DNA of 64,000 bases from Geothrix sp. 21YS21S-2 (lineage in GTDB: Bacteria; Acidobacteriota; Holophagae; Holophagales; Holophagaceae). Below, in pieces: positions 8,858 through 36,285 of the stretch. Both the position numbers and the translations under genes were made by a program. The stretch spans positions 4,281,001 through 4,345,000 of the forward strand of contig NZ_CP132910.1 in NCBI RefSeq assembly GCF_030846775.1, in the 5' to 3' direction. The notes beneath the pieces were generated by a model. That model was not told where the DNA came from and did no database searches. It saw only the letters and a program-made list of their open reading frames with translations. The stretch's first letter is position 1, and every line of letters begins with the position of its first letter.

Positions 8858-11056
8858 GTGTCTTCCGAACGAACGGTCCGCGGGGCCATGGACGGAGTCA
8901 TCTGCATGCCCTTCGGGACGAAATCCCTGGCCCTGGTGGCCGCCCTGGCGGCTTCGGCCCTGTTGACCCTCGGCGGCGGGCTGGCCGCGGCCTTCCACCT
9001 GTGGCGGTGGACGCCCTTCCTGGTGCTCGGGCTCCTCCTCAACGGGGCGGTGGCGGCGTTCCTGTGGAAGGCCATGGGCCTCCTGGCCGCCCGGTGTGCC
9101 GAGCTGGCCAAGGAGCGTGACGCCAGCCGGGACCAGGCCGCCCTCCTGCGCTTCGCGCTGGACGGCGGGGAGGACGGCATCCGCATCGTGGACGGAGCCG
9201 GCTCCGAGCGGGAGCGCAATCCCTCCTACGCCCGGATCTGGGGCCTCGACGGGGCGGATGGCAACGAGGAGGACATCATCCTGGCCCAGCTCCGGGACCC
9301 CGACGGCTACCTGGCCCGCGAGGCGGAACGGGTCAGCCTGGACGTCCTGGACCTCTGGGACGGGCGCGTGCTGGAGCGCCGCTCGCGGCCCTACCGCACC
9401 CCCGGCGGCGAGGAGCTCCGGGTCTGGCAGTACCGGGACATCACGTCCCGCGCCAACGCCGACCGGTTCGTCCACCGGCTCTCCCAGGCCGTGGAGCAGA
9501 GCCCGGTCTCCATCATCATCACCGACACCGCCGGGAGCATCGAGTTCGTGAACACGGAGTTCACCGCGCTCACCGGCTTCGCCCTGGACGAGGTCCTGGG
9601 GAAGACGCCGCGGATCCTCAAGTCCGGCCTGACTGGCGCCCAGACCTACCAGGAGCTGTGGAGCGCCATCACCCGGGGCGAGGTGTGGGCGGGCGAGTTC
9701 CAGAACCGCAAGAAGGACGGCGAGCTCTTCTGGGAGCGGGCCACCATCTCCCCCATGCGGGACGCCGACGGGGTGATCACCCACTTCCTGGGCATGAAGC
9801 AGGACATCTCCCGGCAGAAGACCCTCGAGCAGCAGCTGCGCCATTCCCAGAAGCTGGAGGCCGTGGGGCTCCTGGCGGGGGGCGTGGCCCACGACTTCAA
9901 CAACGTGCTGCAGGTGATCAACGGGTACGGCACCCTCATGCAGCTCGGGCAGGCCCCCGACGATCCCAACCGGGCCGCCCTCTCCGAGATCCTCAAGGCC
10001 GCTGAGCGGGCCGCGCAGCTCACCCACAGCCTGCTGGCCTTCAGCCGCAAGCAGGTGATGAACCCGAAGACCCTGGACCTCAACACCATCGTGGCCAACG
10101 TGGAGAAGCTCCTGCGCCGGATCATCGGCGCCGACGTGCGCCTGGAGGTCGCCAGGCACCCGGAGGCCCTCCCGGTCCACGTGGACCTGGGCCAGCTCGA
10201 GCAGGTGCTCCTGAACCTGGCCACCAACGCCCGGGACGCCATGCCCGCCGGCGGCACCCTGACCCTGGCCACCCGGCCCTTCCACCTGGACGAGGCCTTC
10301 CGCGCCGGCCGCGGCTTCGGCCGCGTGGGCGACTACGCGGAGCTGGAAGTGAGGGACTCCGGGGAGGGCATGGACGAGGACACCCTGAAGCGGATCTTCG
10401 ACCCCTTCTTCACGACCCGGGAGCTGGGCCGCGGCACCGGCCTGGGGCTGGCCACGGTGTTCGGCATCGTCAAGCAGCACAAGGGGTACATCCTCGTGGA
10501 AAGCGGCGCGGGGAAGGGCTCGGCCTTCCGGGTCCTGGTGCCCCTGGCCCCCGCGGCCCCGGCGGAACGGGAGGATCCGGAGGCCGGCGAAACCGGCGTC
10601 CGCGGCACGGAGACGATCCTCGTCGTCGAGGACGAGCCCCCGGTGCGCGCCATGGCCGAGCTCGTGCTGAGGAAGTACGGCTACGAGGTCCTGCTGGCCT
10701 GCGATGGCCAGGAGGCGGTGGACGTCTTCCGCGCGAACCCCGACGCCGTCGACTTCATCCTCATGGACATCATCATGCCCCGCAAGAGCGGCCGCCAGGC
10801 CTTCGAGGAGATCCGCCGGGAGCGCCCCGGCGTGAAGGTCCTCTTCATAAGCGGCTACACCGCCGACTTCATCCAGGGCCGCGGCGAGCTCGAGCCGGGC
10901 ATGGAGCTGATCATGAAGCCGGTGCAGCCCCTGGCTCTGCTGCGGAGGATCCGGGAGATCCTGGACCGGCCCCCATCGCCTCCAGCGTGCGCAGATCCGC
11001 GGGACCTCCCCGCTTCTCCAGCAGCGCCCGCACCGACTCCCGCTTCGCGGGGCTGA
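8858..11056 (+). CDS. Hybrid histidine kinase: TM - PAS - PAS - HisKA - HATPase - receiver
   Basis: A 732-aa membrane sensor. Two hydrophobic helices (LALVAALAASALLTLGGGLAA; TPFLVLGLLLNGAVAAFL) precede a first PAS-like region (FALDGGEDGIRIVDGAG) and a clear second PAS (SPVSIIITDTAGSIEFVNTE, ending in FLGMKQDISRQK). The HisKA phospho-acceptor lies in VGLLAGGVAHDFNNVLQVI. HATPase boxes are NLATNARDAM, DSGEGMD, DPFFTTRELGRGTGLGL. The receiver has EDE, LMDIIMP (phospho-Asp) and MKPVQP. GTG 8858 follows a GGGAAGGGAG stretch at long spacing; ATG 8888 is an alternative start. Its last 146 bases overlap the 3' end of a convergent gene. Target unknown. Confidence 0.88.
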   Translation: MSSERTVRGAMDGVICMPFGTKSLALVAALAASALLTLGGGLAAAFHLWRWTPFLVLGLLLNGAVAAFLWKAMGLLAARCAELAKERDASRDQAALLRFALDGGEDGIRIVDGAGSERERNPSYARIWGLDGADGNEEDIILAQLRDPDGYLAREAERVSLDVLDLWDGRVLERRSRPYRTPGGEELRVWQYRDITSRANADRFVHRLSQAVEQSPVSIIITDTAGSIEFVNTEFTALTGFALDEVLGKTPRILKSGLTGAQTYQELWSAITRGEVWAGEFQNRKKDGELFWERATISPMRDADGVITHFLGMKQDISRQKTLEQQLRHSQKLEAVGLLAGGVAHDFNNVLQVINGYGTLMQLGQAPDDPNRAALSEILKAAERAAQLTHSLLAFSRKQVMNPKTLDLNTIVANVEKLLRRIIGADVRLEVARHPEALPVHVDLGQLEQVLLNLATNARDAMPAGGTLTLATRPFHLDEAFRAGRGFGRVGDYAELEVRDSGEGMDEDTLKRIFDPFFTTRELGRGTGLGLATVFGIVKQHKGYILVESGAGKGSAFRVLVPLAPAAPAEREDPEAGETGVRGTETILVVEDEPPVRAMAELVLRKYGYEVLLACDGQEAVDVFRANPDAVDFILMDIIMPRKSGRQAFEEIRRERPGVKVLFISGYTADFIQGRGELEPGMELIMKPVQPLALLRRIREILDRPPSPPACADPRDLPASPAAPAPTPASRG

Positions 11057-11561
11057 GCCGCTGGCCCACCTCGCACTTGGCCGAGCTGCGCTCCACGGCC
11101 AGCTCCAGGACGGCCACGGCGCCCACGCTGCCCGCGTACATCGGGTCCTCCGCGGTGATGGGGCGGTAGCCGCCCTCGGGCTGGAGTTTCCGCATGAGGG
11201 CGTCCAGCACCGCGGCCTTGCGGGCGGGAGCCTCCACCTCCTTGAGGGTTCCGTGGAGGAGGACGGACGTGAAGTACTGGCTGGCGGGGCAGGCCCGCTC
11301 GGGATCGAAGGCGTAGGAGGGGATCTGGGAATACGCGTCCACCACCAGGAAGGTGGCCCTGCCCTGGTGGCGCAGGGCCTCCATCTTCTCGCCGGCGCGG
11401 GCGCCGTGGAAATAGACGTTGTCCCCCAGGCGCACGAAGTTCAGGGGCACCAGGAGAGGCGCGCCCTCGGCCGAAACCAGGCCCAGCACGCCCCACTCCG
11501 CCGCGTCCAGCACCTGGGCGACGGCTTCCGGATCCTTGAGTTCCTTCTCCTGACGGCGCAA
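10911..11561 (-). CDS. Pyridoxamine 5'-phosphate oxidase family (FMN-binding split barrel) protein
   Basis: A 216-aa protein of the PNPOx-like split-barrel family. Diagnostic parts are AEWGVLGLVSAEGAPLLVPLNFV, DNVYFHGARAGEKMEALR, ATFLVVDAYSQIPSYAF and YFTSVLLHGTLKEVE, as in nitroimidazole-resistance/flavin-reductase-like members. I place the start at TTG 11561 because AGGAAGGGAGG lies seven bases upstream; no ATG or GTG fits. The C-terminal about 48 residues, low-complexity after RTLEAMGAG, overlap the convergent hybrid kinase gene, which is unusual. FMN is the expected cofactor. The ferritin gene starts 137 bp away on the opposite strand, so the two are divergently transcribed. Confidence 0.8.
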   Translation of the reverse strand: MRRQEKELKDPEAVAQVLDAAEWGVLGLVSAEGAPLLVPLNFVRLGDNVYFHGARAGEKMEALRHQGRATFLVVDAYSQIPSYAFDPERACPASQYFTSVLLHGTLKEVEAPARKAAVLDALMRKLQPEGGYRPITAEDPMYAGSVGAVAVLELAVERSSAKCEVGQRLSPAKRESVRALLEKRGGPADLRTLEAMGAGPGSPGSSAAEPGAAPAS

Positions 11562-14515: not shown

Positions 14516-14595
14516 AGGTCCCGTAGCTCAGGGGATAGAGCGACCGCCTCCTAAGCGGTAGGTCGGCAGTTCAATTCTGCCCGGGACCACCAGCC
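14516..14595 (+). repeat. attL: left 80-bp direct repeat
   Basis: Identical to 36206-36285, covering the entire tRNA plus one base before and three after. The two flanks diverge at once (AAAA/GCGC before, ACGC/GCGT after). Because the repeat spans the whole tRNA, integration leaves two intact genes rather than one gene plus a 3' fragment. Confidence 0.93.
14517..14592 (+). tRNA. tRNA-Arg (anticodon CCT), left copy
   Basis: Cloverleaf: acceptor arms GGTCCCG and CGGGACC, D arm GCTC/GAGC, anticodon stem ACCGC/GCGGT with loop CTCCTAA (anticodon CCT), T arm GGCAG with loop TTCAATTC, then discriminator A and an encoded CCA. All stems pair. It is preceded by a TACAAT box and followed by a hairpin terminator inside the island. 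Confidence 0.97.
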
Positions 14596-14639: not shown

Positions 14640-14719
14640 CCGTTGCTATTCCCATTCTCTAAGATCGGACCACCCCGCAGGGTTGTTGGTGAGATTCCTC
14701 GCCGAAATCGTAGTGCGAG

Positions 14720-14748
14720 GTGCAATAGAGGTGCAATAGAGGTGCAAC
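14720..14748 (+). repeat. Three tandem GTGCAATAGAG repeats near attL
   Basis: The 11-bp unit GTGCAATAGAG occurs at 14720 and 14731 and begins a third time at 14742 (GTGCAAC). The same unit recurs inverted at 15022-15040 and again beside the right end at 36159-36176. Placement near both att sites and the short spacing suggest arm-type binding sites for the integrase or its directionality factor. The rest of 14596-15218 shows no supportable gene. Confidence 0.6.
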
Positions 14749-15218: not shown

Positions 15219-15491
15219 ATGCACTTGACCCTCGATGACTTTTCTCGCAACCCGCTCAAGTTTCTTCCTGCCGCCCTGAAGGGGGAAGAGGTCATCCTGG
15301 TTGTGGACGGTGAGGCGGTGGCACGACTGGAGCCCATTGAGAAGGCTCCTTCGGTCGAAGACCATCGTGAACGGCTTGCCACAATCCCAGATGACCGCCT
15401 TGGCAAGGGTAAGCCGCCCCTGCCCACTCTCATCAAGATGTCCGGCGAGGGTCCCTCCGCATCCGACATGATCCTGGAGGACCGACGCTAG
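15219..15491 (+). CDS. Phd/VapB-like antitoxin, apparently solitary
   Basis: A 90-aa protein. The first 45 residues follow the Phd/YefM pattern: FSRNPLKFLPAALKGEEVILVVDGEAVARLEPI, a short DNA-binding domain ending in the typical hydrophobic strand and AxLxP-like turn. The C-terminus (SASDMILEDRR) resembles the tails by which VapB-type antitoxins end. Such proteins bind operator DNA through the N-terminus and neutralise a toxin through the C-terminus. No toxin gene follows; the next 1.1 kb lacks a convincing gene. GGAG about 13 bases upstream (GGAGCCGGAGAAACTC) supports ATG 15219. It may stabilise the island or be a remnant. Confidence 0.6.
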   Translation: MHLTLDDFSRNPLKFLPAALKGEEVILVVDGEAVARLEPIEKAPSVEDHRERLATIPDDRLGKGKPPLPTLIKMSGEGPSASDMILEDRR

Positions 15492-15525: not shown

Positions 15526-15573
15526 AGGTAGAACACGTCCGTGCTTCATTAGGCGGAGCCGCAAGGCTGCGCC
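15526..15573 (+). repeat. Dispersed 29-bp repeat + hairpin, copy 1
   Basis: Conserved block 15526-15554 (AGGTAGAACACGTCC then GTGCTTCATTAGGC), 34 bases after the antitoxin stop. Its last GGC opens a hairpin: arms GGCGGAGCC and GGCTGCGCC around a GCAA tetraloop, one mismatch (15552-15573). Confidence 0.75.
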
Positions 15574-15770
15574 GCGCCCTGGTTCTGGGCAGCACCACCA
15601 AAGCCGATGGCTCGACCTCGGTTCAACTATGCATGCCGGTCCTGGCTGTTCAGGGAGAAGCCTGCACAGCATTCCGCTTCCCAGGTTGGGAACGAGAGCA
15701 CCAACCGGAATGCCTTGCTGGACAGAGCCATTCGCGCCTGTGCGTTTGAATGAACGAAAGCAAGGAATCT

Positions 15771-15846
15771 TGCACAGAATCATGCAATTTCGCGTGCACA
15801 AAATCTTGCAATTCTTCGTGCACGAAATCTGGCACGGAAATTTCCG
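15771..15846 (+). repeat. Three imperfect 24-bp tandem repeats (iteron-like)
   Basis: Units begin at 15771, 15795 and 15819, each starting TGCAC followed by (A/G)(A/G)AATC and TGCA or GGCA; copies 1 and 2 continue with ATT. The exact 24-bp spacing, close to two helical turns plus, resembles iterons or a multi-site operator. No gene clearly uses this region as coding sequence. Confidence 0.55.
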
Positions 15847-16631
15847 AAGAATTATGCCGCAACGGGGATGGTCTTAAATCCAGGAACGGACTGGACCCAT
15901 GAAGTTGGAACTCCATCAAGGAAAGGTGCAAGGAGTGGTGGGGTGGTCTTGCCGATTTGTCGCTAAATCCCTACAATTATCTATTCGCACCGCAACGAGG
16001 GATTCCTCCGTGCGCGGCACATTGCCTTCAACCGATTGAACTGCCATTAGCAAACGGGTTGAAGCACGCACCTAGGCGGGCGCTAGTTGGCGCCACCTAG
16101 GGCACAAATTTGCGAAACAAGCCCCAGCGCTGCGGTGCGGGGTCCTGACCGACCAGCAGCATGCTGGATTTTCGGCAGCCACGTCTGAGACGGCGCGGGG
16201 CGGTCCAGGTGACGCTGATGATGCCCACCTACCCGGAGTTGGTCCCTCTTCGCAGAGAGGCAACGGCACAGGCGGGAACCCCTCGGACGAGGAACTAGCT
16301 GAGTATCGACCAGGAGCAACGGTGAGCAACCGACCTTCCTAGTGTGGAGGGGCGAGAGTAGCCGAGGCGGTGGGGCGTGAAAGGAAAGTTGACCACCCGT
16401 GGACAGAGTCTGAATCGCTGGCTTGACTGGTGTGCCGGAGGTTTACATATTCCTATGTCAACTGAATTTCCCAATTTCCGTGACCTTCGAGTAGCTCGGA
16501 ATTTCGGCAAAGTTGGTGACCACTGGATGCGGTAACCCACCAGGGCGCGCATCCTCCAGAAATCCACGGCAGCATCGAACTGGTGGAGGGGTGTGGGAAG
16601 GGTGGTAGTCCTCAACCTTGGAGACCCCACT

Positions 16632-17096
16632 ATGCAAACACTTGCCGAACTTGAGACCCATGACATGCGTAAATCCGCAATCCATGAGTCCGGACACGCC
16701 CTCGTTGCGAGGCATTACGGCATCCCCGCTGAGCCACTCATCTTCCGAAACGCCGAGGTATCCGATCCGCTAGAGTTCAAGACCTGGCTCGGGACGACCA
16801 GGCTGAATGACACAAATATCTCGCCCTTGCGGAAACGCCGAGTGGGTCTTGCCGGTGTGGCGGCAGAATTTCTTGCAGGAACGCATACGGGCGAGTTGGA
16901 CCTTATGAGCTTCATCCAGGATTCCTATGGGGACAGCGTTGAAACCTCGGACGGATGGTCACGGACGGATTGGGAATCGGCTGAAGGGTGGACTGAAACC
17001 GACCTTCACGCCGTATTTATGATTCTTACCCGCAGGTGGGAGTGGCTCCTTTTAGAAGTGAACTCGCTCATCGCCTACCCTGACAGCGATGGTTGA
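16632..17096 (+). CDS. Small HExxH metalloprotease-like protein (M41-like)
   Basis: A 154-aa protein with AIHESGHALVARHYG (residues 17-31), the HExxH zinc-protease helix in the form seen in FtsH-type M41 peptidases (HEAGHA). A second helix, VGLAGVAAEFLAGTHTGELD, matches the M41 segment that follows the active site and supplies the third ligand (E or D). No AAA+ domain or membrane helix is present, so it is a stand-alone peptidase-like domain. ATG 16632 has TTGGAGA upstream, chosen over an earlier in-frame start. Function in the island is unknown; it may cleave a regulator. Copy 2 of the 29-bp repeat lies 102 bases after the stop. Confidence 0.6.
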   Translation: MQTLAELETHDMRKSAIHESGHALVARHYGIPAEPLIFRNAEVSDPLEFKTWLGTTRLNDTNISPLRKRRVGLAGVAAEFLAGTHTGELDLMSFIQDSYGDSVETSDGWSRTDWESAEGWTETDLHAVFMILTRRWEWLLLEVNSLIAYPDSDG

Positions 17097-17198
17097 ATGC
17101 TGGTGAAACTGGCATTCGTCAGGAAGGACAGGCGCCCGCCAACGCACGAAGAGCGGTGTCTGCGCCCCACGCCTTGATCCATACCCCGGCGACCTTCC

Positions 17199-17242
17199 AG
17201 GTAGAACACGTCCTTGCTTCATTAGGCACCGGGACCGGAGCC
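17199..17242 (+). repeat. Dispersed 29-bp repeat + hairpin, copy 2
   Basis: Conserved block 17199-17227, differing from copy 1 at one base (T for G before TGCTTCATTAGGC). Hairpin 17225-17242: arms GGCACC and GGAGCC around GGGACC, one A-A mismatch. Confidence 0.75.
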
Positions 17243-17718
17243 GCTCTTGAAGACAAACCTCGCGGACGTGCAGATTGATCAACTTGCCATGATGAGAGAC
17301 CAAATCTTGTGGCTGCTCAAGACGGTGGCGGTGCCGCCGGATGAGGGTTGACCCCCAGGAACGACCGTAGCCGGTCCGCATCATCCTCCAGGGATTCCCA
17401 ACCTGGCATCCTCGAAGCGCAACTGAGCTGGTGGATCAGGTGGAAAACGAAGTCTTCGGGGATCATGACCATGGCACGCTCCACGCGGGTGCTTAGGATA
17501 GCGCAGGGCGAGCCAGAGGGACCTGACTGAGAACACTATGCTCCTGTGCTCCGCAAACTGCTCGGCGCCCACGCAGGAGGCGTTGTTGCTGCTCGACGTT
17601 CCCCCTCCAGGCTCGACCGCCGCTGTGGGGCGCCTTTGCGGGTGCTACAGGACCCACTAGGGCTTCCCAGGCTTGTGAGCACTTCCAAGCCCTGGGCGTG
17701 AGGTCTCAGGGGCTTCCT

Positions 17719-17765
17719 AGGTAGAACACCTTCATGCTTCATTAGGCACCGGCGGTGGCGGTGCC
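17719..17765 (+). repeat. Dispersed 29-bp repeat + hairpin, copy 3
   Basis: Conserved block 17719-17747 (AGGTAGAACACCTTC then ATGCTTCATTAGGC). Hairpin 17745-17765: perfect 7-bp arms GGCACCG and CGGTGCC around a 7-base loop. Confidence 0.75.
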
Positions 17766-18127
17766 GCAAACCTGTGTGAAGACCATCATCATGTGTCCGG
17801 CGAGAGGGATGCTCGCCGCCGCAACCTTTATTGTGGGACTCGCACCTGGACGCCTCTGAAGCTTTTCTCAGAGGGTCGGCTTCATAGGCATCTGCTTGCG
17901 ACCCCGGAAGCGCATCGCCGCGAATTTCGTCCTTCCATATAAGAAATTCGCCCATTTCTGCCACCCACGACCACTTCTGGCTGAAATTCCTCTGAATTTG
18001 CGATTACAGAGGAACGCGCCACTCTAGGCGATGTGGTGGGATTTGGGCGGTGGTAGCTCCAAACAACGGCAATGGGGAAACGGACGAGCGCAGGGCTCCC
18101 CGACCTATGCCTTACATGGAGAAATGT

Positions 18128-18355
18128 ATGAACACCACCCTTCAAACCCTACTGGACGCCATGGCGGTTGCGCCGAAGCCGCGCTACCCACTGGAAGAGG
18201 TTGCGTATCTCCTGGATGCCCGCCTCCAGGCAGTCAAGAACCTGATCAAGAACGGCAAGTTGAAAGGGGTGAAGACGGGTCCCAGGAAATGGGGCTACGT
18301 TCTTCACAGCGATCTCGAAGCCTTCGTTACGAACTTGAACGGTGGTGCCCTGTGA
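18128..18355 (+). CDS. Excisionase/AlpA-like helix-turn-helix protein
   Basis: A 75-aa protein whose core, YPLEEVAYLLDARLQAVKNLIKNGKLKGVKTG followed by WGYVLHSDLEAFV, is the winged-helix fold of the HTH_17/excisionase family (helix, turn, recognition helix, then a wing, and a final helix). Proteins of this type act as recombination directionality factors or as regulators of integrase genes. ATG 18128 has GGAGA seven bases upstream. The stop overlaps the GTG start of the next gene (GTGA), so the two are coupled. In this island it is the best candidate for the partner of the integrase, though the genes are 17 kb apart within the integrated form and adjacent across the circular junction only at larger scale. 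Confidence 0.6.
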   Translation: MNTTLQTLLDAMAVAPKPRYPLEEVAYLLDARLQAVKNLIKNGKLKGVKTGPRKWGYVLHSDLEAFVTNLNGGAL

Positions 18356-18711
18356 GCCGCCGCGAGAATCCATTCCATGTGCCTGTTCGTCCAATCCCCT
18401 ACGACCCATACGAGCAGTTCGAGCATGATGATTTCCCCGCTGGTGAGGCGCCCTGGCTTGACTACAACCTCTTCACGACCGCTGTGGTCACCAGGGTGAT
18501 CGATGGGAACCTTCTATGGATTTCGGATCGTCCTAGGAATGCCAACGAAATCCGAGAGGTGCTCTTCCCGACCTATGAGGAGGGAACTATGAACACCGAC
18601 GAAATCCTTTCGGTCCTCTGCAATGTCCTCTTCGATGCAGGGTTTGAGCCATACGGTCAGGACGTGGAAGCCTTTTGGACTTCCCCGGTGCCATCCCTCT
18701 CTCGGCAGTAA
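18352..18711 (+). CDS. Small protein of unknown function, coupled to the excisionase-like gene
   Basis: A 119-aa acidic protein starting at GTG 18352, four bases overlapping the previous stop. The N-terminus is rich in Pro, Tyr and Asp (VRPIPYDPYEQFEHDDFP); the C-terminus has VLFDAGFEPYGQDVEAFW. The latter resembles segments in two other small genes of this island (GFDSHGGSLDKTWFC near 20975 and GYTPIGEDGETANG near 22320), hinting at a shared short module. No known domain recognised. Confidence 0.55.
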   Translation: MSRRENPFHVPVRPIPYDPYEQFEHDDFPAGEAPWLDYNLFTTAVVTRVIDGNLLWISDRPRNANEIREVLFPTYEEGTMNTDEILSVLCNVLFDAGFEPYGQDVEAFWTSPVPSLSRQ

Positions 18712-18796
18712 CGAATTGGAACACTCTCAACCTAACGCCGGTCTGGATGCTGAATTGGCGTCGCCCCCGGGGGTAGGTAATTCTTTCGGTGAATAT

Positions 18797-20050
18797 ATGG
18801 GTTCAAACAAGCCCAATGTCTTTGAATTCCTTGAAGGGCTCGCAAGGTTCAAGGTCGTCTTCGTCAAATTGGCTCCAGGTCAAAAACACACCATCGGTGG
18901 TTGGGAACCATACATCAACGCCCATGAACAGCATGGTGCGTCCCGACTGGATCATGCTCTCCAGTGGCTCGACAAGGGCTTCGGTCTGGGTTTCCTGCCC
19001 CGCAACAGGCTGTGGGCGGTCGATCTTGACCGGTCCATAACAGCGCCAGGGCTGCCAATGTTAGAGCGCCTGGAGGACTTCCAAGTGGAAACGATGCGCT
19101 TTGGACCGCGTGTCACGACGCCCTCGGGCGGGCAGCATGTTTACTTTCGTCTTCCCGAGGAAATCGACATGGGCTTGCTCAAGAACCATGTATGCCACCC
19201 AAAGGACGAATATGACATTCCGCAGGAGTGGGACTTCAAGCTGGGTCCAAGGACGCTCATGGTCGCGCCAGGCACCTCGCGGACATTGTCGGATGGCTCG
19301 ACGACCTCATACCGCCCGGCGACGCTTTGGATTGAACCACCAGTCTGCGACCCCAGGTGGATCGTGCCTGGTTTGCCGATTTTGAATTCGCCACCAGAGC
19401 CGTTCACTTTCTCTCAGCGGAGCCTGGAGGATCGCATCGTCAGAGCAGTCGCCTTTCTTCGTAAACGCGCACAGCGATCAGTGCGTCACTCAGGAGGAGG
19501 TGGACACTATGCACTATGGCAGGTCGCCGTTCACCTGGTTGCATACCTGCGGCTAGATCCTGGGCTTGCAGTTAATCTCCTGACTCACCCCGAAGGGCAG
19601 AGTTGGAATGACCGCTCGGTGGACATGGAAGGCAGGCGTGCGCCGTGGTCTGTAAGGGAACTCTATGCGGCATGCTCGGACGCCGTCGATGATGCCCCGC
19701 CATTTGGGATTAAGGAATACAAGGAACTCCAAGCGAGGGGGATCGTGCAGGCTCGTTTGGACGATTTCACCGATCTTCTCAACTACTTGCCGTTTTCGGA
19801 CGAGAGGATGTTTTCCCTGGACCTCTACCGTATCTTCCTTGAATTGGCGGACCTGGAGGAGGATGAGTGCAGCAGTGACCGCTTTGGCAAGGCTGTGGGG
19901 ACCGCCATACGCCAAGGCGTAACCTCCGTGACTTCGTGCCAGATGCTCAAGTCCAGAACGAGGGCATACAGGGGCGTCAGCGAGTCCATGATTCTTCGGG
20001 CGCTCCATGACCGGGAAGAGCTTCGCCTCTACTTCGATCGCGTCGCATAG
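18797..20050 (+). CDS. Prim-pol (bifunctional DNA primase/polymerase) domain protein
   Basis: A 417-aa protein whose N-terminal half carries the archaeo-eukaryotic primase (prim-pol) signature: LWAVDLDRS (two catalytic Asp, about residues 76 and 78) and TTPSGGQHVYFRLPEE (about 108-122, with the catalytic His). LGPRTLMVAPGTSR fits the following strand. Such proteins start and extend DNA synthesis in plasmids, satellites and integrated elements. The C-terminal half lacks a recognisable helicase P-loop, so a separate host helicase would be needed. ATG 18797 is preceded by GGTGA; the frame is open earlier but non-homologous. Its stop codon overlaps copy 4 of the dispersed repeat. Confidence 0.75.
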   Translation: MGSNKPNVFEFLEGLARFKVVFVKLAPGQKHTIGGWEPYINAHEQHGASRLDHALQWLDKGFGLGFLPRNRLWAVDLDRSITAPGLPMLERLEDFQVETMRFGPRVTTPSGGQHVYFRLPEEIDMGLLKNHVCHPKDEYDIPQEWDFKLGPRTLMVAPGTSRTLSDGSTTSYRPATLWIEPPVCDPRWIVPGLPILNSPPEPFTFSQRSLEDRIVRAVAFLRKRAQRSVRHSGGGGHYALWQVAVHLVAYLRLDPGLAVNLLTHPEGQSWNDRSVDMEGRRAPWSVRELYAACSDAVDDAPPFGIKEYKELQARGIVQARLDDFTDLLNYLPFSDERMFSLDLYRIFLELADLEEDECSSDRFGKAVGTAIRQGVTSVTSCQMLKSRTRAYRGVSESMILRALHDREELRLYFDRVA

Positions 20051-20093
20051 GTAGAACAGCTTCTTGCTTCATTAGGCGCACCGCCGGGGCGCC
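20049..20093 (+). repeat. Dispersed 29-bp repeat + hairpin, copy 4
   Basis: Conserved block 20049-20077 (AGGTAGAACAGCTTC then TTGCTTCATTAGGC) begins inside the prim-pol stop codon. Hairpin 20075-20093: arms GGCGC and GCGCC around a 9-base loop. Confidence 0.75.
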
Positions 20094-22790: not shown

Positions 22791-23600
22791 TCACCTAATC
22801 ATTGATATTCCGCGAAGATTCTCGACAACATTCTTCCTTACATTTGAAACAACCTCTCGCTGTTCGTCCGGCAAAAGCGACTCCATTCTTGTTAAGTGCT
22901 TTGCCAAACCATCCACGTCTGGATAGATATTGGCGGGATGGATGCCAATAATTTCTAACTGTTTCCGAATTTTGGGGAATGATGCAGCGGGAATAATGAG
23001 TTTTGTCAATTTGGATGAATATTCGGGATCTTCTTCGAGCGGAACAAAACACCCTTGCTCTTCATTTAGATAATGCACGGTAAAACACCCGGCTTGATTG
23101 ACGATACGGCTGGTGACACATCGCGGGAAATATATCTTTGTTGACTTGATAACAAAAGGACTCGTCTCAGGCACGGGGCTGACGCTCTGGCGGTCTGAAT
23201 ATTCTAAAATCCAAACAACCCCATGCTGTTCGCTTTCGGGTTCCTCCGGGAGGGGTTGATATGGGTTCTCAACGGCGAAAAAAAGTGCAATCAGAGGATT
23301 TAGAGACCAGTCGAGTAGTCTTGTTGCCATCCAGTGATGTTGGGCTAGGGCGAGCCATTCCCAGTCAATTTCTCCTTGCACTTGCGATCCGTTTAGCAAG
23401 AGGGGGGCGCGCCTTTTGAACTCGTTGAACATCCTTGATTCTTTGTCAAGAATGCTTCCAAATTGGAACTCTTTCCTTGCCAATTTGGGAGCGAGGCTCC
23501 AATTTCTGCCTTGCCCTCGGAAAAGGGTTTTGTCGGGTTTTGAAACCGAAAATACCGATTTAATATAGTGATTAATTGTAGGAATGCTCTTGATTCTCAT
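22791..23600 (-). CDS. FRG domain-containing protein
   Basis: A 269-aa protein with a full FRG domain (named for its Phe-Arg-Gly motif): TLFRGQGRNWSLAPKLARKE near residues 25-44, then LALAQHHWMATRLLDWSLNP followed by LIALFFAVEN near 83-112, the two most conserved blocks. FRG proteins occur often in phages and defence islands, and their biochemical activity is not established. ATG 23600 overlaps the stop of the 153-aa gene by four bases, and that gene lies 15 bases after the XRE-ImmA gene, so the three form an operon read leftwards. The C-terminal 80 residues (ASFPKIRKQLEIIGIHPANI) are typical of the family. Confidence 0.85.
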   Translation of the reverse strand: MRIKSIPTINHYIKSVFSVSKPDKTLFRGQGRNWSLAPKLARKEFQFGSILDKESRMFNEFKRRAPLLLNGSQVQGEIDWEWLALAQHHWMATRLLDWSLNPLIALFFAVENPYQPLPEEPESEQHGVVWILEYSDRQSVSPVPETSPFVIKSTKIYFPRCVTSRIVNQAGCFTVHYLNEEQGCFVPLEEDPEYSSKLTKLIIPAASFPKIRKQLEIIGIHPANIYPDVDGLAKHLTRMESLLPDEQREVVSNVRKNVVENLRGISMIR

Positions 23601-24073: not shown

Positions 24074-25267
24074 TTAACTGTTTTGAGCCAGTAAATAGGT
24101 CCCGATTTTTGCAATGTGCTTGGATCTAATCCCAAGGCAATTGGATGCGTCAACAAAGTCAATGGAGCCTCGCCCGAGGGCTTTGATTACAAGAGTGCTC
24201 AACGCTTTCCCATTACGGTTTACGGCAAGAATGTGATATGGAATAATTACGGGTCCGCGTTCTTTATTTGCTTCTTCTGAAAGAACTTTGATTCTCGCAA
24301 GATGCTGCTTTTGGCATGATTCGGTGATGTAACCCAGGGATTGTAATCTGATTAAGAGCATTTCAGCGCTAACCGAAAAATGTGCGGTCATTTCTTTCAA
24401 TTGGGCTGTCGTAACAGTCTTTCCCTGGCTAGGAGTTGCAATATCATCCCAACAGTTACCCAAATCATCTTCTGGGCATAAAAATTCGGCAGCAACACGA
24501 TTGCAGATGGTCTCAAGGAATTCTCTTGTCCGGTATCGTTTTGCTGTCGCGCCCTTCCCGATAGAAATAATGTGAGCAAGGTGACACAATTCGTGTATCA
24601 GGGTGAAAATCTTGCCATTTTGAGCATCTGAACAGTTCAGCACTATTACAGGAAACGGCAGGGCAGGAAGAACGAAACCTCGAAAAATATCAACTGGAAC
24701 CTTCTCTGAGTTCGGTTCATTTTGAATTACAAAAATCCCCAGAGCCTCAATTGCTTCCTTCCAATGTCGAAGTGCCTTGTCTGGCTTTTTCCAGGAAAAT
24801 TGTTCCGACAAAGAGATTCCGACCAGGGCTCTGAGTTCTTTGGCTATTCGGCGATGGTTGTCGTCAAAGACAATGGCGCATTTATCAATTTTGTTAATAA
24901 CCGTGTCTAAATTTTCAAAGCATGACCGCAATACCTTCTTCTTTTGACTTTCGACTCTTCTCCTAAGGGCACTAATTTGATCAGCGACTTCCTGCTCAAA
25001 TGCACTCAGTGATCTGAACTCAATTTCAACGTCTTCATGGTCTGGTGGCAGCGGAAGGAAAAAAAGGGGCAATGCTCGCTTAAGGGTTTTTGCAAGTAGC
25101 TGAAGTTGCGGGAACGAGGGGATGATGCTCCCTGATTCGTATCCCTCCAGTCTTTCTATCGGGATTTTTGTCCGCCGAGAGACTTCTTCCATGGTCAAGT
25201 GGGCAGAACACCGGGACCATTTGATCAAGGCTGGGTTACATTTTGCAAGAATCGCTCGTGCCGCCAT
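24074..25267 (-). CDS. XRE-type regulator fused to ImmA/IrrE metallopeptidase
   Basis: A 397-aa protein. Residues about 20-75 form an XRE helix-turn-helix (LTMEEVSRRTKIPIERLEGYE then GSIIPSFPQLQLLAKTLKRAL). The zinc peptidase motif HELCHLAH lies at about residues 225-232, followed by RVAAEFLCPEDDL, which supplies the third ligand region. This ImmA/IrrE (M78) layout is found in regulators that cleave repressors on damage or infection and in toxin-antitoxin-like loci. ATG 25267 is chosen because AGGAG lies upstream; ATG 25288 has none. It is the first gene of the operon with the 153-aa and FRG genes. The region is AT-rich relative to the chromosome. Confidence 0.85.
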   Translation of the reverse strand: MAARAILAKCNPALIKWSRCSAHLTMEEVSRRTKIPIERLEGYESGSIIPSFPQLQLLAKTLKRALPLFFLPLPPDHEDVEIEFRSLSAFEQEVADQISALRRRVESQKKKVLRSCFENLDTVINKIDKCAIVFDDNHRRIAKELRALVGISLSEQFSWKKPDKALRHWKEAIEALGIFVIQNEPNSEKVPVDIFRGFVLPALPFPVIVLNCSDAQNGKIFTLIHELCHLAHIISIGKGATAKRYRTREFLETICNRVAAEFLCPEDDLGNCWDDIATPSQGKTVTTAQLKEMTAHFSVSAEMLLIRLQSLGYITESCQKQHLARIKVLSEEANKERGPVIIPYHILAVNRNGKALSTLVIKALGRGSIDFVDASNCLGIRSKHIAKIGTYLLAQNS

Positions 25268-25393
25268 GCTTCGCTCACTCCTGGACATGCTTGAGGACGT
25301 ATGCGCATGATTTTACATTAAGCAAAGAGCTGGAGTTTGAAAATATCGTAGTCATTCCGCCAGACGGGAATGGGCTAGCAAAACCAGGAGACC

Positions 25394-31284: not shown

Positions 31285-31561
31285 GCCTTGCTAGTTGGAG
31301 ACAAGGGAAACAGTTGCAAAGTCAACCCTCAAGGTGCCCTGCACCAGGAGGCTGACCGCGACCATCAGGACGCTGAGCGCTTGGACTTCACGGTTCATGT
31401 TGTTCTCCTCCACGATGAAAGAATACTGCATCAGGCTTAAACACGCGGCGCCGCAGCAATGCGGTAACGGCTTCCTTCGGGGAGTCGGCAAACTGGGGGG
31501 AGGCAAGTGGAGTGCCGCTACCATCTTCCCCCAGTTCAGCCCTTGCCAGAGCGGCAGGGGG
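31285..31561 (+). ncRNA. Putative structured ncRNA upstream of reverse transcriptase
   Basis: The region before the RT gene contains consecutive hairpins typical of stable RNA: CCTTG/CAAGG at 31287-31307; CCGCA-GCAA-TGCGG (31451-31464, GNRA tetraloop); CTTCC-TTCG-GGGAG (31471-31484, UUCG tetraloop). Then three blocks (AACTGGGGG 31491, GGCAAG 31502, TGCCGCT 31513) find complements in the same order at 31528-31536, 31542-31547 and 31550-31556, as in interleaved pseudoknots. AAACA occurs at 31308 and 31439. RTs of the DRT2 type are preceded by a template ncRNA. The boundaries and function here are inferred. Confidence 0.5.
31291..31398 (-). CDS. Antisense small hydrophobic peptide in the putative ncRNA region
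   Basis: On the strand opposite the RT, GGAGGAG lies six bases before ATG 31398, opening a 35-aa frame: MNREVQALSVLMVAVSLLVQ then GTLRVDFATVSLVSN. It has a hydrophobic central helix. It overlaps the region proposed as RT template. It may be an independent small membrane peptide, or the reading frame of a protein made from cDNA copies as known for DRT2 (Neo), or chance. Confidence 0.3.
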   Translation of the reverse strand: MNREVQALSVLMVAVSLLVQGTLRVDFATVSLVSN

Positions 31562-32838
31562 TGGCTAGTGCTTTTTGCATTAAGCCAAGGGGTTATCTCC
31601 ATTTTGACGAGCCGTTTTTTGGACCAGGTGCACTGCGCCTGGCTTCCAATGATGGCAGGGTGACAACCTGGTCATTCATGCCGTTTATCCATACAACCAT
31701 TGAGGCACGTAAGGTAAAGAAGAAGAACGGGGCACTTACTCCTAAAGTTAAAACCCGTGATATTTATTACGCCGCCCACCGGGATGCGGCTATCTACTCC
31801 TACTATGCATACATTCTTAATGAAGCATACAACCGGTTAATTCCATCTCTTGGGCTGGATGATGTGGTCACTGCTTTTAGAAGTAATCTGCATAAGTGCA
31901 ACATCCATTTCGCGGCTGAAGCCTTTGAATTCATCAAAAACAACCCGGATTGTATGGTTTATACCTATGATGTCTCTTCGTTTTTTGACAACCTTGACCA
32001 CCGGATTTTGAAATCGCAATGGGCAAGAATCCTTGGGGTAACTCGTTTACCGTCGAACCATTATGCCGTATTCAAGTCCATAACCAAATTTTCATTCGTT
32101 GATCTTCAAGATTTATATAATACTTTTGGGATTAGCAAACATGCGCCAAAAGCAAATGGGAGAAGGCGAATCTGCACAATCCCGGAGTTTAAGTCTAAAA
32201 TCAGAGGGCAAGGACTAGTCAAGCCTAATCCGGGAGGATTTAAGGGAATTCCCCAAGGTAGCCCTATAAGTGCTGTTCTCTCGAATATCTATATGCTGCA
32301 ATTTGATACGAAGATTGCTGCTGAAGTTATTAGCCTGAACGGATTGTATCGGAGATATTGTGATGACATTATATGCATAATTCCAAAAGGGAAAAATGAA
32401 GTAGTAGCAGCCTCAATTCAGCGAGAAATAGGCATCCTTCATCTTGAAATTCATCCGGATAAATCATCTACATTTTCCTTTTCTCAAGGACTAATTGATA
32501 AGGATTCCCCTCCGTTTGTCCAGTATCTTGGATTTACATTCGACGGTAAGCGTATCGCATTAAGAGCTGGCAGTATGAGTCGTTACTATTCCAAACTTCG
32601 TGCTGCCGTTTCACTTGCCCATCAAACGAGACTGAAACACGATAGGCTTAATGGGACAGAAACACTCATCCGGAGAAAGCGAATTAATTTGAAATATTCA
32701 TATCTGGGTCGCCACAATTTTATTGCCTACGCACTAAAAGCGTCTAGGCTTACCCAAAGCGTCGCCATTAAGAGACAGATCAAAGGTCACTGGAAAAAAC
32801 TTCAGAAGGAAATTGCGAAGATTGAGTTGGTGCCTTAG
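31561..32838 (+). CDS. Reverse transcriptase of the unknown-group/DRT type (DRT2-like)
   Basis: A 425-aa RT. Catalytic blocks: motif A VYTYDVSSFFDNLDH (about residues 133-147), motif B GIPQGSPISAVLSNIYM (about 229-245), motif C RRYCDDII (YCDD about 266-269), and QYLGFTFDGKRIALRAG downstream. The N-terminal KPRGYLHFD and KTRDIYYAAHRDAAIYSYYA blocks and the lack of maturase or endonuclease domains argue against a group II intron and for an anti-phage DRT, best guess DRT2. The start is uncertain: GTG 31561 precedes the conserved KPRGY block; GTG 31507 and ATG 31678 are alternatives. Strongly AT-rich. It is single, with a structured upstream region. Confidence 0.8.
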   Translation: MASAFCIKPRGYLHFDEPFFGPGALRLASNDGRVTTWSFMPFIHTTIEARKVKKKNGALTPKVKTRDIYYAAHRDAAIYSYYAYILNEAYNRLIPSLGLDDVVTAFRSNLHKCNIHFAAEAFEFIKNNPDCMVYTYDVSSFFDNLDHRILKSQWARILGVTRLPSNHYAVFKSITKFSFVDLQDLYNTFGISKHAPKANGRRRICTIPEFKSKIRGQGLVKPNPGGFKGIPQGSPISAVLSNIYMLQFDTKIAAEVISLNGLYRRYCDDIICIIPKGKNEVVAASIQREIGILHLEIHPDKSSTFSFSQGLIDKDSPPFVQYLGFTFDGKRIALRAGSMSRYYSKLRAAVSLAHQTRLKHDRLNGTETLIRRKRINLKYSYLGRHNFIAYALKASRLTQSVAIKRQIKGHWKKLQKEIAKIELVP

Positions 32839-35065: not shown

Positions 35066-36106
35066 TCATGCCAACCCCAGCTTCTTGCCAAGCTCGTCCT
35101 GAGCCTTTCGCTTAGCACCAAGGCTAGTTTCCACATAGATCATCGTGGTCGTTACATTTTTGTGCCCAAGCATTCCTTGAACCTCGGATATGGGCGTTCC
35201 CGCCTCCGTGTGGAGGGTGGCGAAGGTGGCGCGCAGGCGGTGCTGGGTTACATTTCCGAGTTCAAGCTTCTGGCAGACTCGGTGAAGCGCTTTTTTGCAG
35301 AACTGTTGGCGATGCGGTTTGCCGTCCTCGGCTGGGAATACCCACGGACTTATGATTTTCGGCATCGCATGGATGGAGGACCAGAGCCACGAAGGGACCG
35401 GGAGGACCCGCGCTTCCTTGCCCTTTGCCTTGCCGACAATGTAGGTTTGATTGATCTGATCGAACCATTCCCATCGCATGCCTAATACTTCGCTCTCCCT
35501 CAAACCGAGCCCGATCATGACTCGCAGCATTACGGGGACATGCGGGTTCCGGGCTTCATGGTCGATTGCAAAGAGAAATTCCGAAACCTTCGCGGCATTG
35601 ATCACTGGTCGGGGCTTCTTCTGGGTTTTCAGGAACGCCACTTTGAAGGGTAGTGATTTTAGGTAACCCTGTCTGATCGCAAAATTAATCAAGAGTTTGA
35701 GTATTTTCAGCATGTCGTTCACCGTGACTGGGGATCGACCTGCTTCCAACATCTTGGAGCGAACCTGATAGACGTCCGCGTTGGTGATGCGGTCCACACG
35801 GCGATTTTCAAGGTTCGGAAGGAGCCAGATGCGCGAGACCATCTCGACGTCATACCAATGCTTGGCACTGTGCACGGGCTTATGGACCTGAAGCCAATTG
35901 TCCCGAACCGATTTCAAGGTGGGAATTTGCCTGGTCCCGCATTCCTCGTTGAGGACCTGGCGACGAAGCTCTTCGAGCACCTTCCGTGCCGTAGCGAGAT
36001 CTGTCGCCCGGGTGCTTCCTTTGAACTGCCTGCCATTGATCCGGACGCAGTAGTGGTAGTGTCCACTTGGATGCTTGGCGAGTCCGTTTTTGAATTTGGT
36101 TGTCAT
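35066..36106 (-). CDS. int: Tyrosine-family site-specific integrase
   Basis: A 346-aa integrase. The N-terminal region is an arm/core-binding domain (SGHYHYCVRINGRQFKGSTR, then a SAM-like helical segment). The catalytic domain has Arg I in GLGLRESEVLGMRW, HRLR in VTQHRLRATFATLHTEAGTP, GH in GMLGHKNVTTTMIYVETS with the nucleophile Tyr after TTTMI. These are the R-K-HxxR-H-Y residues of tyrosine recombinases. ATG 36106 has GGAG seven bases upstream and is preferred to the open frame back to 36175, which crosses the GTGCAA repeats. It lies 101 bp from attR and points into the island, as integrases of tRNA islands usually do. Confidence 0.92.
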   Translation of the reverse strand: MTTKFKNGLAKHPSGHYHYCVRINGRQFKGSTRATDLATARKVLEELRRQVLNEECGTRQIPTLKSVRDNWLQVHKPVHSAKHWYDVEMVSRIWLLPNLENRRVDRITNADVYQVRSKMLEAGRSPVTVNDMLKILKLLINFAIRQGYLKSLPFKVAFLKTQKKPRPVINAAKVSEFLFAIDHEARNPHVPVMLRVMIGLGLRESEVLGMRWEWFDQINQTYIVGKAKGKEARVLPVPSWLWSSIHAMPKIISPWVFPAEDGKPHRQQFCKKALHRVCQKLELGNVTQHRLRATFATLHTEAGTPISEVQGMLGHKNVTTTMIYVETSLGAKRKAQDELGKKLGLA

Positions 36107-36158
36107 TTCCGCTCCGGAAAGGAGCGGGGGGATCAGGGCTAAGGAATGGGAGGGGAAA

Positions 36159-36176
36159 GTGCAATAGAGGTGCAAC
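36159..36176 (+). repeat. GTGCAATAGAG repeat beside attR
   Basis: One full and one partial unit (GTGCAATAGAG then GTGCAAC) between the integrase start and the right tRNA, matching those near attL. Candidate integrase arm site; it also overlaps the probable int promoter. Confidence 0.6.
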
Positions 36177-36205: not shown

Positions 36206-36285
36206 AGGTCCCGTAGCTCAGGGGATAGAGCGACCGCCTCCTAAGCGGTAGGTCGGCAGTTCAATTCTGCCCGGGACCACCAGCC
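36206..36285 (+). repeat. attR: right 80-bp direct repeat
   Basis: Exact copy of 14516-14595. Sequence diverges immediately on both sides. Confidence 0.93.
36207..36282 (+). tRNA. tRNA-Arg (anticodon CCT), right copy
   Basis: Base-for-base identical to the left tRNA-Arg, with all stems and CCA intact. Upstream sequence (CCCAGCAAACCCGCGC) has no clear -10 box, so its expression may depend on read-through or be lost. Confidence 0.95.

Follow-up and report, generated by a model that had tools for sequence, protein, structure and literature searches.

Four hairpin-linked repeats as possible replication sites of a tRNA-integrated PrimPol element in Geothrix

The genome of Geothrix sp. 21YS21S-2, a member of the Holophagaceae (Acidobacteriota), contains a mobile DNA element integrated at a tRNA-Arg gene, and within this element lie four copies of a 29-nucleotide (nt) repeat, each of which runs into a hairpin. 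The element is situated in the 64,000-nt stretch of contig NZ_CP132910.1 (positions 4,281,001 to 4,345,000) that was analysed here, referred to as the window, and positions are those of the window unless a related locus is named. The sites are real, element-specific and structured. The explanation that we favour, although we place it somewhat short of an even chance, is that they are cis-acting replication sites of the element, which encodes its own primase of the PrimPol type; we infer for them functions in protein binding, in priming and as part of an origin. In several related elements a two-part site is kept where the primase gene ends, with a fixed spacing and in either orientation, and such a site is best read as a DNA replication site.

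The repeat consists of two constant blocks around six variable bases, AGGTAGAACA-N6-TGCTTCATTAGGC. It is matched four times in the window, at 15526, 17199, 17719 and 20049 and always on the plus strand, with none expected (0 in 100 shuffles). Copy 1 (15526-15554, spacer CGTCCG) starts 34 nt after the stop codon of the open reading frame (ORF) 15219-15491, and copy 2 (17199-17227, spacer CGTCCT) 102 nt after that of ORF 16593-17096. Copy 3 (17719-17747, spacer CCTTCA) lies in non-coding DNA, and copy 4 (20049-20077, spacer GCTTCT) starts at the second base of the TAG stop codon of the PrimPol gene. The coordinates, strand and sequence given in an earlier note on this DNA, made from the letters alone, proved exact. 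The central bases all fit S-S-T-Y-C-N. All four copies run in the sense of the genes and are arranged around the excisionase and PrimPol genes. The copies resemble one another over no more than about 46 nt, and they are therefore not the remnants of one longer mobile repeat that the earlier note had considered.

The repeat seems to be confined to this element. In the rest of the 5.25-Mb host genome no copy of the 29-mer occurs at up to 3 mismatches, and the 13-base second block alone has one further place at 1 mismatch. Exact or near-exact copies are absent from the 76 other genomes of the family and from plasmids in a DNA search, and no exact match was found in a scan of 84,980 species genomes or in IMG/VR. 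Two IMG/VR matches were taken as chance, lying inside ORFs of AT-rich contigs that we presume to be T4-like. No description of the repeat was found in the open-access literature, judging by titles, abstracts or passages and with incomplete coverage. The absence of further copies, which the earlier note had named as counting against its reading, thus holds for exact copies, but diverged relatives of the site are seen where other PrimPol genes end.

In each of the four copies, the final GGC of the 29-mer opens a hairpin of 18-22 nt that is preceded by the constant 5' flank. The hairpins, all on the plus strand, are located at 15552-15573 for copy 1 (GGCGGAGCC-GCAA-GGCTGCGCC, with one G.G mismatch), at 17225-17242 for copy 2 (weak, with an A.A mismatch), at 17745-17765 for copy 3 (a perfect 7-bp stem) and at 20075-20093 for copy 4 (GGCGC/GCGCC with inner CC/GG). 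Their predicted RNA energies are -16.0, -7.4, -13.6 and -12.1 kcal/mol for copies 1 to 4, respectively. Equally good or better folding is seen at 0.3%, 13.8%, 0.6% and 1.7% of the 770 GGC sites on both strands of the island, a background in which the four copies themselves are included. The enrichment over other GGC sites has a combined p of 3.9e-5 by Fisher's method, for a 'starts at GGC' rule that was picked after the data were seen. The hairpins themselves are real, as had been noted for every copy. Folded as DNA with a short flank, the copies have z-scores of -1.7, -1.1, -2.7 and -1.6, while whole-site RNA folding gives -0.5, 0.8, -2.0 and 0.2, so that three of the four are not unusually stable.

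The first three stem pairs, the GGC/GCC base, are invariant. Two-sided changes are present at positions 4, 6 and 7, and pairing fails at position 4 in copy 2 and at position 5 in copy 1. Changes of the compensatory kind on which the earlier note relied are visible, but the argument from them to a selected RNA structure is not established. With only four copies, covariation is indistinguishable from shuffling: a formal count does no better than shuffled data (243 of 500), and in the MAFFT alignment behind it the 3' arms of copies 2 and 4 are misplaced. Separately, a 34-codon ORF (17247-17351, plus strand) without a Pfam match begins 5 nt after the copy 2 hairpin, and the GGAG upstream of it falls in the 3' arm of this hairpin.

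Relatives of the PrimPol are present in 8 of the 77 genomes of the family, the host counted and one genome having a weak partial match. Among 396 genomes taken from the phylum, 5 have such a relative, and these all belong to the family; none turned up in the phages, plasmids, IMG/VR entries or genome contigs that were searched. The first four related loci that were examined, in the genomes designated G066, G021, G009 and G011, all have elements adjoining tRNA genes. A weight matrix built from the four window copies alone was applied to related loci with a total of 1.39 million positions, a background that includes the elements themselves and some overlapping loci. The top match, at 22.5 bits, is found at the 3' end of the G009 PrimPol (locus L016): AGGTAGAGCG-GGTTCG-TGCTTATTTAG, on the opposite strand, antisense to the PrimPol and inside the ORF. 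The fourth-best, at 16.9 bits, belongs to G063 (L028) and reads AGGTGGACCG-GGTTCT-TGCTTTATG, on the same strand as the PrimPol and 37 nt past its stop. Both lie within 90 nt of the PrimPol stop and have the block and spacer lengths of the window sites. A weaker match, of 11.8 bits and on the opposite strand, is situated where the PrimPol gene of G071 ends (L027). With this one included, a site is located at or near the PrimPol 3' end in three of the six relatives scanned. By our own arithmetic, about 0.01 matches of at least 16 bits would be expected in the roughly 3,900 positions near the six PrimPol stops, and two are seen. The stop scan covered six of the eight related loci; L029 and L030 have weak partial PrimPol matches, and their best scores in the whole-locus scan are 10.9 and 10.7.

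Some of these ends are also structured. In G063 a second, facing copy (9.5 bits) completes an inverted pair, which as DNA folds into a long stem-loop (z -2.8). With z -2.2 the PrimPol end of G009 also folds well, whereas that of G071 does not (z 1.2). Since the two strong matches are oriented oppositely with respect to PrimPol, RNA sense is not required. A refined matrix and a model, R2, were made from all eight sites and are circular for these members; over the 77 family genomes the model found no further site of comparable score (next best E 0.055).

If the sites do serve replication, they would be bound either by the PrimPol, perhaps by means of a winged helix at its C-terminus, or by a partner protein. 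The confidently modelled C-terminal 100 residues or so weakly resemble winged helices, so that the PrimPol itself might be the binder. Upon unwinding of the strand, the place of primer synthesis would be marked by the 5' flank together with the GC pairs that open the hairpin, as with RepB' on ssiA, a single-strand initiation (ssi) site of plasmid RSF1010. The site at the PrimPol gene end would be part of an origin, like the role proposed for the stem-loop behind orf904 of pRN1. As to the four copies on one strand, the simplest guess would be that a single template strand is primed repeatedly. The genetic context supports such a role: the element has attachment (att) repeats, an integrase, an excisionase-like protein, the PrimPol and an iteron-like array near copy 1. 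The single-strand idea in the earlier note fits this explanation, but the particular roles that it named are unsupported.

The comparison with RSF1010 is instructive on both sides. Iterons occur in RSF1010, and an iteron-like array lies near copy 1; both replicons encode their own primase of archaeo-eukaryotic type, a likeness at the level of the type. As in ssiA and ssiB, a short constant 5' flank leads into a hairpin of about 20 nt in the window copies. RepB' recognises ssiA by contacts to a single-stranded tail on the 5' side and to the hairpin's first GC pair (PMC4434180), and this contacted part, tail and hairpin base, corresponds to the constant part of the window sites. However, RSF1010 has one ssi per strand, whereas here there are four on the plus strand and none on the minus strand, and the constant flank in the window is far longer and in two parts.

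In pRN1, a stem-loop behind the primase gene is needed, with a poorly conserved sequence and a conserved structure (PMC4234260). A site at or near the end of a PrimPol gene is likewise seen in four elements here. In contrast to the single stem-loop of about 100 nt in pRN1, the window hairpins measure 18-22 nt and come in four copies; long stem-loops of the pRN1 kind at the PrimPol end are restricted to the G063 and G009 elements. The pRN1 protein combines Prim-Pol, helicase and winged helix, while in the window protein the Prim-Pol is found, a winged helix is suggested by weak matches and a helicase is not recognised.

Several observations weigh against replication sites. The GTG start motif used by RepB' and pRN1 is present 3' of the hairpin in copy 3 only (one of four). 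No helicase domain was recognised in the island PrimPol by domain and protein searches, and the resemblance of its C-terminus to winged helices is weak, with matches at E 0.02 or worse. For the G066, G021 and G011 elements, the matrix scan gave no such site where the PrimPol gene ends. The sites of the relatives have no window-like GGC hairpin behind them, and a hairpin that follows the G071 site is weak and does not exceed background. The matrix test, moreover, was not blind: the G009 and G063 sites were already known, the latter by eye. On account of the features that fail (GTG motif, one site per strand, a recognised helicase domain and, in the window, a long stem-loop), the system, although it may work in a similar way, is not filed as a member of either the RSF1010 or the pRN1 type.

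The main rival, a real contender that we nevertheless consider unlikely, is that the 29-mers are operators or stoperators, asymmetric sites of a regulator of the element that controls or halts excisionase-PrimPol transcription, the hairpins being secondary. The stoperators of Cluster A mycobacteriophages are asymmetric, directional, genome-specific and dispersed, and the window sites resemble them in being asymmetric, directional, element-specific and dispersed at gene ends or in short intergenic stretches along the direction of transcription (PMC6550527). Several helix-turn-helix (HTH) proteins are encoded in the island, and the inverted pair in G063 would suit a dimer. Unlike the four 29-nt copies here, stoperators measure 13-14 bp, number 20-30 and have a known repressor, and no hairpin is mentioned for them in the available part of that source (PMC6550527); the constant base and the enrichment of the window hairpins are left without an explanation. 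The sites, moreover, recur where the PrimPol gene ends, also when their orientation is reversed, and no cognate repressor was identified.

An element that acts as RNA, either an antitermination signal of the nut or put kind or a processing signal with a linear box and then a hairpin after stop codons, appears quite unlikely. The nut-site layout is indeed a box plus a hairpin, all four copies are sense to genes and copy 4 begins at a stop codon. The strong G009 site is nonetheless antisense to its PrimPol and within the ORF, and the ribosomal RNA operon (rrn) spacer of the relative G021 shows no TGCTTCATTAG-like box beyond chance. The whole-site RNA folding, no better than shuffles in three copies, and the small number of copies, too few for covariation, give no help. 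The stretch has no Rfam match above the gathering score; this and the lack of a promoter excess leave the small RNA proposed earlier unsupported as well. The orientation relative to PrimPol differs between elements, and this favours a DNA-level site over a nut-like RNA, a terminator or a small RNA.

Ordinary intrinsic terminators, also suggested in the earlier note, are improbable, and so are GC-rich hairpins that happen to follow a conserved site for a protein. GC-rich hairpins after genes are common, and that of copy 2 is equalled by 14% of GGC sites; on the other hand, a T-run is absent after all four hairpins, none is among the terminator-like sites listed for the window, and three of the four are within the top 2% of GGC sites. 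Least probable of all are module-flanking recombination sites or a small mobile repeat, such as remnants like repetitive extragenic palindromes (REP) or miniature inverted-repeat transposable elements (MITE). Two conserved blocks do flank a variable 6-base centre, much as a tyrosine-recombinase core has two blocks around central bases, and the copies are found in non-coding stretches and where genes end. Yet there are only four, all in a 4.6-kb part of a single element, and the rest of the genome has none; their similarity stops too soon for a mobile repeat, and their centres differ. The excisionase-like gene and the PrimPol gene would belong to such modules, no swapped module is seen, the exact sequence is in no other genome searched and the sites of relatives are tied to the PrimPol end.

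The element is bounded by two copies of tRNA-Arg(cct) on the plus strand, at 14516-14595 (left att) and 36206-36285 (right att), which are identical over 80 bp. Its tyrosine integrase, recognised in protein-family searches, is located at the right end (35066-36175, minus strand). Direct repeats GAGGTGCAATA lie near the left tRNA (14717-14747) and GGTGCAATAGAGGTGCAA recurs near the tRNA in loci L017, L069 and L071; these are probably arm sites of the integrase. On the plus strand, the ORF 15219-15491 has weak similarity to Phd/YefM antitoxins (E 0.028, below the cut-off), and ORF 16593-17096 has weak peptidase M50 similarity in a domain search. Between them, 0.2 kb after copy 1, a non-coding stretch contains the iteron-like tandem array (15771-15834; period 24, 2.7 copies). 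The excisionase-like HTH protein of 75 amino acids (aa) (18128-18355, plus strand), for which all matches are weak, overlaps by 4 nt with a 119-aa ORF without an assigned function (18352-18711, plus strand). The primase gene follows (18797-20050, plus strand), with a product of 417 aa from the ATG at 18797 and a match to Prim-Pol PF09250 that, at 27.0 bits, exceeds the cut-off of 22.8. The structure model of this protein is poor overall (predicted local distance difference test, pLDDT, 61), too poor for its nearest fold to be named, and confident for about the last 100 residues only.

The cargo in the right part of the island serves defence; a type I methyltransferase is among it, and so is a reverse transcriptase of the DRT2 type. 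The latter (31507-32838, plus strand) is a PADLOC Drt2 match with E 1.8e-151, separated by about 340 nt from the preceding ORF. In DRT2-type systems, a template RNA is said to lie in the stretch before the reverse transcriptase. A defence cluster includes, on the minus strand, a PDC-S15 candidate defence protein (22791-23600) and a protein with weaker RmrA matches (24074-25288), which in our reading is an XRE-type HTH plus a metallopeptidase. With its tRNA integration, its primase and its varied cargo, the island is similar to the bacterial tRNA-integrated PrimPol elements of the PrimPol-PV1 survey. In its available passages, that survey describes proteins and borders, not dispersed hairpin sites (PMC5862659).

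Related elements contain further repeats of their own. The G066 element (L014) has a 37-nt dyad repeat pair, GTGACCANNCACAGGTGTGCANNTGCACATC, at 11070-11106 and 9598-9634 on the minus strand, beginning at the stop codons of its excisionase-like gene and PrimPol gene. The same locus contains several direct copies of a tRNA-Met 3' end, near 1815, 3611, 5125 and 11792, probably a tandem array of integrated elements. In the G021 element, CTTCATTA and GGGGCGAAGCCCC are located 88 nt upstream of the PrimPol. This combination of the second block and a hairpin is only a hint and was not adopted as a general signature, because a similar one arises by chance in host DNA (L103). A match in L069 was dropped since it falls within a 1273-aa ORF. 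Another shared site, GAGGCGGGTTnnGGGTTAACCA or close to it, is absent from the window element and occurs twice in three loci (L017, 8721 and 15291; L029, 8625 and 10201; L030, 10193 and 10260) and once in a fourth (L016, 8957 on the minus strand). The G052 element has a two-copy 29-nt repeat with CGGCTTATAGGTAGAGMGGCANGMACA (L071, 7322 and 11049), a pair that has AGGTAGA in common with the window motif. AGGTAGA was not kept as a general mark of PrimPol elements, since it occurs in background loci as well and in several places forms part of a coding sequence (codons for Val-Glu-Arg).

Integrated elements of bacteria commonly carry PrimPol genes, and to our knowledge the places where their primases start are known for very few. 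It is conceivable, although we consider it doubtful, that the sites belong to a class of replication site not described before, with the two-part recognition sequence AGGTAGA..C.-N6-TGCTT.AT.AG, which would be particular to one group of PrimPol elements. Such a site would have been multiplied in the window to four hairpin-marked priming stations on one strand, with relatives keeping one site or an inverted pair at the primase gene end. The interest is mainly for those who study PrimPol elements and is otherwise modest. If the sites are operators instead, they would provide a first regulatory code for this group of elements. If they are indeed priming or origin sites, they would supply, for a bacterial PrimPol element, a recognition sequence that is short and can be tested, and they would show how the sequence of such a site may diverge while its spacing and its place are kept.

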